Below are positions 3,267 to 52,051 of a stretch of DNA of 64,000 nt, in pieces. Each line of letters opens with the position of its first letter. The stretch's first letter is position 1. Location: the NCBI GenBank assembly GCA_030041515.1, contig JASHNS010000092.1, forward strand, positions 1 through 64,000, written 5' to 3'. The DNA is from Acidobacteriaceae bacterium (GTDB lineage: Bacteria; Acidobacteriota; Terriglobia; Terriglobales; Acidobacteriaceae). The position numbers were made by a program, and so were the translations under genes. The notes below the pieces were generated by a model that worked only from the letters and a program-made list of their open reading frames with translations, searched no databases and was not told the origin of the DNA.

Positions 3267-4252
3267 CCCAGCACCTTCGCCGCTTCCACCGCAAAATACG
3301 TCACAATGAATCCCGCCCCCGCCCGCCGGATCGACACCAGCGACTCCAGCATCGCCCGCTGCGGCTCCAGCCACCCCTTCGCGAACGCCGCCTGCAGCAT
3401 CGAATACTCCCCGCTCACCTGATACGCCCCGATCGGCGCCGTGAACTGCTCCCGCGCTGCGCGAATCACATCCAGATACGGCATCGCCGGCTTCATCAGG
3501 ATCATGTCCGCGCCCTCGGCCAGGTCCAGGTCGATCTCCCGCATCGCCTCGCGCACGTTCGCGCCGTCCATCTGGTAGCTCCTCCGGTCGCCGAACTGCG
3601 GCGCCGAATCCGCCGCCTCACGAAACGGCCCGTAAAACGCCGATGCAAACTTCGCCGCATACGACAAAATCGGCGTCTGCTCCAGCTCTTCCGCATCCAG
3701 CGCGTCCCGAATCGCCGCCACCCGCCCGTCCATCATGTCGCTCGGAGCCACCACGTCCGCTCCGGCCTTCGCCAGCGACACCGCTGTCTTCGCCAGCAGC
3801 CCCAGCGACGAATCGTTCTCCACCTCGTACTCGCCGCCCTTCCGCTTCACAATTCCGCAATGCCCGTGCGACGTGTACTCGCACAGACACACATCGGCCA
3901 TCACCACCAGCGACTTCGCTGCGCTGGAACTCTTCAGCGCCCGCAATCCCTGCTGCACAATCCCGTCGTCCGCCCACGCGCCTGTCGCCTCTTCGTCTTT
4001 CGTCTCCGGAAGCCCAAAGAGCAGCAGCCCGCCGATCCCCAGCGCCGCCGCCGCCTCGGCTTCTTTCACCGCCTCATCGACAGAAAGGTTGAACACCCCG
4101 GGCATGGACGCAATCTCTTTGCGCACGCCCTCGCCGGGGCACAAAAACAGCGGCAGAATCAGCGCGCCCGGCTCCAGCCGCGTCTCGCGCACCAGCGCGC
4201 GCAGCGGCTCCGTCCGCCGCATCCGGCGCATCCGCGTCACAGGAAATTCCAT
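3263..4252 (-). CDS. hemB: delta-aminolevulinic acid dehydratase (porphobilinogen synthase)
   Basis: Condenses two 5-aminolevulinate molecules to porphobilinogen in haem and tetrapyrrole synthesis. The 329-residue product has the zinc-binding cluster [13 protein letters not shown] (near residues 120-132), the lysine-bearing [19 protein letters not shown] region and the Schiff-base lysine in MKPAMPYLD near residue 255. The CxC...C cluster marks the zinc-dependent rather than the Mg-only type. It starts with ATG and no strong Shine-Dalgarno. It is convergent with the Uma2 gene, overlapping it by three bases, and divergent from the four-helix-bundle gene. Confidence 0.95.
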
Positions 4253-48580: not shown

Positions 48581-48666
48581 TTCTTCCCTGATTGGAAAGA
48601 AGCCGCGTCCTGGCGAGCTCCGCTCCCGGTTGCTGTACCGTAATAAAGGAATCCGAGGAGCTGTCC

Positions 48667-49698
48667 ATGCGTGCTCTCGTCAAGGCTCGCGCCGAGCGCG
48701 GGCTGTGGCTCGAAGATGTGCCCGAACCTGAATACGGCATCAACGATGTGCTCATCCGTGTGCGCCGCACCGGCATCTGCGGCACCGACGTCCACATTTA
48801 CCAGTGGGACGAGTGGGCGCAGCAGACCATCCCCGTGCCCATGGTTATCGGCCACGAGTTCGTCGGCGAAATCGCCGCGGTCGGCTCTAACGTCTCCGAC
48901 TTCCACGTCGGCGACCTGGTCTCGGGCGAGGGCCACGTGACCTGCGGACGCTGCCGCAACTGTCTCGCCGGCCGTCGGCACCTCTGCGCGAACACCTCCG
49001 GCGTCGGCGTCAACCGCCCCGGCGCTTTCGCCGAATACATCGCGCTCCCGATGACGAACATCTGGCGCCATCATGCCGGCGTTCCCGAGGAGATCGCCGC
49101 GATCTTCGATCCCTTCGGCAACGCCGTTCACACTGCGCTGGCCTTCCCGGTCCTCGGCGAGGACGTCCTGATCTCCGGTGCGGGACCGATCGGCCTGATG
49201 GCCATCCCCATCGTGCGCTTCGCCGGCGCACGCTACGTGGTGGCGACGGACCTGAACCCCTTTCGACTGGAGCTGGCCCGCAAAATGGGCGCCACGCTGG
49301 CGGTCGATCCACGGGAAACGCCGGTGGCGCAGGTGCAGAAGCAGCTGGGCATGGCGGAGGGCTTCGACGTGGGCCTTGAAATGTCCGGCAGCCGCGCCGC
49401 GTTTGTCGAAATGATCGACAACATGGCCCACGGCGGGCGCATCGCCATGCTCGGCATCCCGGCCAAACCCATGGAGATCGACTGGCGCAAGGTCATCTTC
49501 AACATGCTGACGATCCGCGGCATCTACGGCCGCGAGATGTACGAGACCTGGTACAAGATGTCCGTGCTGGTGACCTCGGGCGTGGACATCTCGCCGGTGA
49601 TCACGCACCGCTTCAGCTACAGGGAGTACGAGAAGGGCTTCGAGGCGATGATCGGCGGACAGACGGGGAAGGTGATTCTGGACTGGACGAAGATCTGA
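48667..49698 (+). CDS. tdh: L-threonine 3-dehydrogenase
   Basis: Zinc alcohol-dehydrogenase-fold enzyme oxidising threonine to 2-amino-3-ketobutyrate. The 343-residue product has the catalytic zinc motif [18 protein letters not shown] and GHEFVGEI, the structural zinc cluster [15 protein letters not shown] and the NAD-binding [23 protein letters not shown] is typical of Tdh. GAGGAG precedes the ATG. The usual partner kbl is not in the window. Confidence 0.94.
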
Positions 49699-49719
49699 CC
49701 ACCGGTCCCTGTTCGCTGA

Positions 49720-50975
49720 TCACTGACTTCCGGGATCCTGCAGCCGGCCCAGGAAGAGAATCTCGCCGCTGCGCGTGCCGCGGATGAGGAACAGGAAAGG
49801 GTGGTCGGCGCGGAAGACGATCGGCGGCTCCGGCACCCGCATCGCCGTCGCCACCATGATGGTGGACGTGGCCGCGGCTGCCTCCGTGCCCTGCTCGTTC
49901 ACGTCGATGAACGCCTTGTGAATCGCGGCCGAGAGGGTCAGGTCGCGCTTGCCGGTCATGCCGGAAAAGTCGGCTGTCCCGCTGAAGGCCTGGGGCATGC
50001 CCATGGCGGCCAGCGTGCTGCTCAGCTCGAACTGCTGGGTCATGGTGAAGCGGGGGAAGGTCACGATGACTTTCTCGGCCGGTGCCAGCCTCCCGATCCA
50101 TAAACGCGCGTTCGCCGCGGTGAACTGCTCTTCGAGCGCGGGCAGACCATCTTTCTGCTTCGGCAGCAGGACGATCATGGCCAGTTCGTTGCCCTTGTAC
50201 GGGAGCTCCAGCTCCTGAAAGCTGCCGCCGTCGTAGTACGAATACTCGCCGCTTCGGTGCATCAGGGGCGTCTTTGCCGTCTGTCCGCTGGAGAGATAGA
50301 AGTCCTCGTCCCGGGTCGCGTTGGCGAGGAACTGATCCTGCCATGTCCCCTTGAATGATCCTGCCATGTCCCCTTGAAGTAGATGGCGTTGGTCAGGACC
50401 AGGCGCGTCGACGGCTGCAGTACGCCTGGGCCGATCAGATTCCGGATGCGGTTGTTGGTTTCCTGGGCGACCCACCGGTTGATCGTGCCGCGCACCGCTT
50501 CGGGCGCATGCTCGAAGTCGACGGGGTGGAAGGCGGCGCCGTAGTCGTCGTGCATCAGCTTCGTGAAGCTGGGCAGGAACTGCTCGTCCTGCTCCGCCCA
50601 AAGAGCGTCGGCCACGCGCAGCTCGTAGTCCGGGTGCGCCTCGTTCATCGAGGCAAGCAGCGCGCCCGTGGCCGGGTGCAGTTGGTCCGGCGGCAGCGTG
50701 AAGTGGAAGACCTGCTGCATCTGGGCCGCCGTCTGGCCGCGCGCGCCGGCATACGCCATGGCGAACGCGGTGGAAATGCTCTGCGGCGAGAAAAACAAGT
50801 TGCCGGGCCGCGCGCGGAGGTGACTATAAAGGTCTACGGCAAAGGCGTTATTGCCTTGGCTGAGGGCTGCCTGATCGGCGGCCGGAACCGCCGTTTGGGC
50901 GACGAGGCCCACAGAGCAAATGAGAACCCCGAGAACGGCGACCGCAACCTCTCCCCGTCGACAGGCAAAGTTCAT
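49720..50975 (-). pseudogene. serpin, disrupted by a 23-bp tandem duplication
   Basis: Exported serine-protease-inhibitor-like gene. The first frame (from 50975, signal MNFACRRGEVAVAVLG...VAQ) runs through NLFFSPQSISTAFAMAYAGA and LVLTNAIYFKGTWQD, then goes out of frame. The second frame resumes FKGTWQDQFLANATRDEDFY and continues to the stop, with an inhibitory hinge EQGTEAAAAT and FRADHPFLFLIRGT. The break is exactly a duplicated 23-bp unit at 50333-50378; removing one copy restores one continuous frame of about 410 codons. Either a recent inactivation or a reversible slipped-strand switch; an assembly error is also possible. Confidence 0.85.
50333..50378. repeat. 23-bp perfect tandem duplication inside the serpin gene
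   Basis: Two adjacent identical units beginning TGATCCTGCCATGTCCCC (50333-50355 and 50356-50378). The 23-nt length shifts the reading frame. Confidence 0.95.
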
Positions 50976-51065
50976 GGATCCTCCACTCGTCGTTCACACA
51001 GAATCTACGCCGTCCCGCGGGATTGGTGAGCGTCCAACCGGGTTGATTTCGCCGGATCGAAAGGA

Positions 51066-51902
51066 TCAGGCGCCAGGGTCGAGCCTTTTGAGCACCCAGG
51101 CCTTGGCTGCCTGGACGGCCTCCGCCGGCCCATCGCCCATAATCAGGCGGCAGAGCAGCGCAGAAGAGAAAGCGCAGCCGGTCCCATGCTCACCGTGGAT
51201 GCCGCGCGCCTCGACGCGCTGCCCGGGAAACCAGGTCTCCTGCCCGCTGGCTTCCAGCAGATAATCGTTGGGCGGGTCGAGATGGCCGCCGGTCACAACG
51301 ACGTTGAGACCATTAGTACGTTCCAAAAGTACCCTGGCCTGGCTCTGAACGGCGTTTCGGTCCGGAACGGGCCGCCCGGTCAGGGCGGCCAACTCCCCCA
51401 CGTTTGGGGTGACCCAGCCGACCAGCGGCAGCAAATCCATCCTCAGGTTTTCCACAGCCGGGGCCGAGAGCAGCTCCTCCCCGGAGCTGGACCGTAGTAC
51501 CGGATCGAGCACTACCCTCCCCCGGGCGACCCCGACCCGCCGGAGAAACTCCGCGACTACGCCGAGGATCTCCGCGTTCGCCAGCATCCCGATCTTGACC
51601 CCCGCCAAAGGTCCGTCGGAAGCCAGGGAGTCGAGGGTACGGCGCAGCAGGTCGCCGTGGACCCACTCCACGGCGGTCACGCCTCGCGCCGTCTGCACGG
51701 TAAGCGCTGTAATCGCGGAGACTCCATTAAACCCATGATTCCAGAAAGTTTGAAGGTCGGCAGTGATCCCAGCGCCCGAGGACGGATCGAAGCCGGCGAT
51801 GGCGAGGAGGACCGGGGCTCCCTCCGGTCGAGGCAACCCTTCGCCTTGGGCAGAATCCGCTCCCGTTTTGGGCTGGGCGGCGCGCGTCCCCATGCCAGAC
51901 AT
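51066..51902 (-). CDS. thiD: hydroxymethylpyrimidine/phosphomethylpyrimidine kinase
   Basis: Ribokinase-fold kinase that phosphorylates HMP and HMP-P for thiamine synthesis. The 278-residue product has LLAIAGFDPSSGAGITADLQTF, VVLDPVLRSSSGEELL, WVTPNVGELAALTG and the anion-hole motif HGEHGTGCAFSSAL near the C-terminus. The start MSGMGTRAAQ at 51902 has AAGG five bases upstream; a longer frame to 52019 reads the leader. About 40 residues of N-terminal extension precede the core. A hairpin with a U-tract lies in its leader. Confidence 0.92.
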   Translation of the reverse strand: MSGMGTRAAQPKTGADSAQGEGLPRPEGAPVLLAIAGFDPSSGAGITADLQTFWNHGFNGVSAITALTVQTARGVTAVEWVHGDLLRRTLDSLASDGPLAGVKIGMLANAEILGVVAEFLRRVGVARGRVVLDPVLRSSSGEELLSAPAVENLRMDLLPLVGWVTPNVGELAALTGRPVPDRNAVQSQARVLLERTNGLNVVVTGGHLDPPNDYLLEASGQETWFPGQRVEARGIHGEHGTGCAFSSALLCRLIMGDGPAEAVQAAKAWVLKRLDPGA

Positions 51903-51964
51903 CGTACCTTGTAGGTCTTCCTGTTCGTTGGGCGGCCGCGATGTTGCGGGGAAGATCGATGCTG

Positions 51965-51998
51965 AAAAAGGTAACCCTTTAGCCGCCGAAGGGCTACC
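51965..51998 (-). terminator. attenuator-like hairpin with U-tract in the thiD leader
   Basis: On the minus strand GGTAGCCCTT pairs with AAGGGTTACC (one G-U) across a 9-nt loop and is directly followed by TTTTT, about 60 bases upstream of the thiD start. The A/T-rich block near 52025-52050 could supply the promoter. No TPP (THI-box) consensus such as CTGAGA is present, so any ligand is unknown. Confidence 0.55.
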
Positions 51999-52051
51999 AC
52001 AGACCGTGCGGGATCGCAAGGGAAGTTAGGCAAATAAATATAGTATTTTGT

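Follow-up and report, generated by a model that had tools for sequence, protein, structure and literature searches.

Spontaneous and reversible sequence duplication has been described in the capsule genes of pneumococcal serotypes 3, 8, and 37 (PMC4243769, citing Waite et al. 2001 and 2003), where, according to the citing source, tandem duplications within the open reading frames of cap3A, cap8E, and tts inactivate the genes and reversion was demonstrated. Here we analyzed an acidobacterial gene with a similar lesion, a frame-disrupting tandem duplication within a serpin gene; in contrast to the pneumococcal duplications, it is known from one assembled sequence. Among serpins of solved structure, the top sequence match of its C-terminal half in the PDB is chloropin of Chlorobium (PDB 8GXV, PMC10090351; E value of 8e-54), and inhibitory serpins share the hinge motif ExGTEAAAA at positions P17 to P9 (PMC10090351). 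A search of the literature for acidobacterial serpins returned no directly relevant paper among those listed. Likewise, phase variation by such a duplicated pair was not found described for this phylum and gene family in the literature searched, and the words tandem and duplication are absent from a review of phase variation (PMC11868660).

The analyzed window, a 64,000-nucleotide stretch of DNA, is contig 9 of an Acidobacteriaceae genome (G000; 4.77 Mb in 123 contigs, 99.9% complete according to the tool used). The serpin gene (PF00079) occupies positions 49720 to 50975 on the negative strand, as frames, Pfam matches, and alignment agree, and is broken once in its frame. The frame that opens with the ATG at 50975, preceded by a ribosome-site-like GGAGG at 50980 to 50984 (GTGGAGGATCC-ATG), encodes 199 codons of serpin with a signal-peptide-like N terminus (50379 to 50975). 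It then reads through the first copy of a 23-bp segment (50356 to 50378; FKGTWQD, the end of the strand preceding the break), adds approximately 30 residues unrelated to serpins, and reaches a stop codon at 50262, for a product of 237 amino acids (tail at 50262 to 50378). The second copy, perfect and abutting the first (50333 to 50355), lies in register with the rest of the serpin, which runs in another negative-strand frame from 50355 to the stop at 49720 and comprises 211 codons plus the stop, including the hinge and the reactive loop. Tandem Repeats Finder returned this array (50333 to 50378, 2.0 copies, 100% identity) as the top-scoring tandem repeat of the window, and chance alone would produce only about 4e-9 perfect 23-bp tandem repeats in a window of equal size and composition. 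The array is exactly 2 × 23 bp with no additional base, and no microhomology was found flanking the ancestral one-copy site.

Both halves matched PF00079 well above its curated cutoff of 27 bits, so that the whole domain is covered in two pieces: the N-terminal half matched profile positions 2 to 168 (E value of 3.6e-50, 171.7 bits) and the C-terminal half positions 161 to 370 (E value of 8.4e-65, 219.8 bits). When aligned separately with intact relatives, the two parts joined at NAIY/FKGTW with neither gap nor overlap, and no second frame break was seen between 49720 and 50975. The start codon, the ribosome site, the export-signal-like N terminus, and the inhibitory hinge are all intact. These data bear out what the sequence-only reading had proposed, namely, that the frame of the gene at these coordinates breaks exactly at two perfect adjacent 23-bp copies and that a single copy would give a full serpin with an intact GTEAAAAT hinge. 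As assembled, the gene does not encode a continuous serpin chain able to insert a cleaved loop into sheet A, since the frame is broken at 50356, and we therefore classed the window sequence as a broken serpin gene.

By sequence, the gene would have encoded an ordinary inhibitory-type bacterial serpin before the break. The window serpin contains the hinge NEQGTEAAAAT, which conforms to the inhibitory consensus, and EQGTEAAAA is present in its relatives as well. Its N terminus resembles a signal peptide when judged by eye, as do those of the relatives, and the protein is probably exported, in line with the earlier proposal of an exported, inhibitory-type serpin. Like chloropin, the window serpin covers the full PF00079 profile and carries the ExGTEAAAA hinge, but it does so in two pieces, its frame being broken in the assembly. 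The two proteins also differ at the center of the reactive loop, which reads VATAMRV in the window serpin and contains Arg-Ser in chloropin; hence, the target protease is likely to be different. An AlphaFold model of the intact orthologue from G011 (L006, 3419 to 4642; mean pLDDT of 73, pTM of 0.69) is predicted to adopt the serpin fold and matched solved serpins, including 8gxv, with E values of 1e-44 to 1e-36 and TM scores of approximately 0.8 to 0.9 among the matches listed.

The sequence-only reading had further concluded from the perfect copies that the duplication was very recent. The duplication does appear to be recent; copy identity, however, is a poor proof of this, as 46 identical bases would still be obtained with a probability of 3 to 6% at a divergence of 6 to 7%, and perfect copies alone thus permit up to about 6% divergence since the duplication. 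Taking into account the 410 codons that contain neither a stop nor a second frameshift lowers the combined limit to about 2%, assuming one indel per 20 substitutions. The dN/dS ratios (NG86) of the window gene against its counterparts in the related genomes G006 and G011 were 0.23 to 0.24 for the N-terminal part and 0.16 to 0.17 for the C-terminal part, and the ratio between G006 and G011 was 0.15 to 0.21. Such low values indicate that selection acted on the gene through almost its whole history, and both halves show purifying selection in the comparisons with G006 and G011, which is what a recent break should leave. The undamaged codons and the purifying selection are better evidence of recency than the identity of the copies. 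With one break in an otherwise conserved coding sequence, the gene has the features of a recent pseudogene.

The window serpin is the sole serpin found in the 4.77-Mb host genome, in which no further copies were detected, and serpins were present in 4 of 61 related genomes. The claim that bacterial serpins are uncommon thus holds within this lineage but not overall, as one scan of genome contigs confirmed 522 relatives. The gene is flanked by conserved genes for L-threonine 3-dehydrogenase (tdh, 48592 to 49698, positive strand) and hydroxymethylpyrimidine (phosphate) kinase (thiD, 51066 to 52019, negative strand). This spot was readable in ten genomes of the genus, three of which carry the serpin (G000, G006, and G011; the G006 contig ends inside its serpin gene). 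The other seven (G002, G003, G004, G005, G007, G008, and G010) lack it, with a hydrolase-like gene in its place in G003 and other genes in G005, and a tblastn search of the interval between tdh and thiD in these genomes detected no remnants of a serpin at an E value below 1. Altogether, the gap in the window (49699 to 51065) and in loci L225, L226, L227, L228, L229, L230, and L233 is variable in content, being occupied by a serpin, by a hydrolase-like gene, or by other genes, or being almost empty, and in G010 just 36 bp separates the tdh and thiD matches.

In a tree resting on three genes (tdh, thiD, and rlpA), G011 grouped with the serpin-less G007 (bootstrap of 99), separately from G000 and G006 (bootstrap of 100). 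The serpins of G000, G006, and G011 formed one clade with a support of 0.97 among the serpins tested. Read most simply, the two groupings together reflect an old gene that was inserted once at the tdh-thiD spot and subsequently lost several times; alternatively, related serpins may have entered this spot twice, independently of each other.

We consider it probable that a chance 23-bp duplication recently inactivated a dispensable, ordinary inhibitory-type, and probably exported serpin gene. A single tandem duplication, which may have arisen by replication slippage or end joining, shifts the reading frame where the strand ahead of the serpin breach ends. The product from the true start would lack the whole C-terminal half, including the reactive loop, and so could not inhibit proteases as serpins do. 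The locus is a variable spot from which the gene has apparently been lost repeatedly in the genus, and the break accordingly resembles one more loss in progress. We infer that the allele is fixed, that the loss of the gene is neutral, and that the protein would otherwise be an active inhibitor. A single recent frame break in a patchily distributed accessory gene is what ordinary bacterial pseudogenes formed by short tandem duplication also display, and no feature distinguishing the window serpin from them was found. Furthermore, a sample of approximately 2.0 Mb of the host genome contained isolated perfect tandem pairs of 17, 18, 18, 23, and 23 bp, and the presence of comparable perfect duplications elsewhere in the genome indicates that such events are background. 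Apart from the serpin pair, the perfect pairs sit in intergenic or uncertain places and also in an in-frame linker, away from serpin and surface genes. The serpin pair is the only one in the sample that breaks the frame of a clearly identified gene, which counts against chance loss, but it bears no mark that singles it out from the others. The meaning of the locus is modest: in an acidobacterial group that has received little study, it provides an example of a serpin, located at the variable tdh-thiD spot, that is apparently being lost, and it illustrates that a perfect short duplication can mimic a switch.

After chance inactivation, the next explanation to be weighed is an assembly error, to which we assign a minor but appreciable likelihood. 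Two contigs overlapping by 23 bp would have been joined end to end without being merged, and the real gene would be intact. The exactness of the array, which lacks both additional bases and microhomology, is what such a join would leave, and the serpin frame is undamaged apart from the duplication. In addition, two pairs of contig ends were left unjoined in this assembly despite exact overlaps of 33 bp and 36 bp (end of L106 with start of L139, and end of L153 with start of L177), which makes a contig-join error a real rival, and the sample holds a second perfect 23-bp tandem copy (L139, 1254 to 1300). As a control, 400 kb from a genome of this family assembled into one contig contained no perfect tandem copy of at least 13 bp, but this sample is too small to decide the matter. 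Against an artifact, the perfect copies vary in length (13, 17, 18, 18, 23, and 23 bp, and others) instead of pointing to one join length, and this spread speaks against 23 bp as the prevailing length of joins, although the 33- and 36-bp overlaps of contig ends keep a join error plausible. Moreover, no N gaps were seen within the contigs examined, and isolated copies of at least 20 bp were not clearly commoner than in loci from other assemblies, where 0.59 Mb held one 29-bp pair.

The sequence-only reading had raised phase variation, in which the population toggles the serpin by gaining and losing a 23-bp copy. The pneumococcal capsule genes, as reported in PMC4243769, set a precedent for such reversible duplication, and both halves of the serpin are otherwise intact in a gene whose product is probably exported. 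The mechanism is thus possible, but we found no positive support for it and regard it as unlikely. The array has just two copies, and the one-copy site contains neither a repeat nor microhomology through which the second copy could often be regained. The 23-bp site is single-copy in G006, in G011, and at nine other Acidobacteriaceae loci, which are all the intact relatives compared (the named relatives being metagenome-assembled genomes), and no repeat was found at any of them, so that the recurrence looked for as a mark of a switch was lacking in this set. The frequent absence of the serpin locus from the genus and the similar duplications elsewhere in the genome likewise speak against the proposal. 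That a free-living acidobacterium toggles an exported protease inhibitor through a reversible 23-bp copy, in the manner of a minisatellite-like pair, seems to us less likely still. Both alleles, if proved by reads to be present in one population, would offer testable duplication-based switching in a soil bacterium. Finally, it is highly improbable that a full or two-part protein is still made through ribosomal frameshifting or an internal start, since, despite an ATG in the downstream frame inside copy 1, the break shows no classical slippery heptamer by eye and no strong predicted structure that would favor slippage (DNA strand, z of −0.69), the region contains no RNA element known to Rfam, and the frame is unbroken in the relatives.

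The survey of short duplications also yielded several minor observations. The second perfect 23-bp tandem copy, in L139 (G000:C40), starts where an open frame has its stop codon. In L173 (G000:C74), two different perfect tandem duplications, of 13 and 17 bp, lie within positions 3872 to 3945 with 13 bp between them. Degenerate short repeats of the TTAGCTGACCGG type were seen in L139 (approximately 1330 to 1400), L119 (8470 to 8581), and L162 (11837 to 12079), and these perhaps constitute an interspersed family of small repeats.
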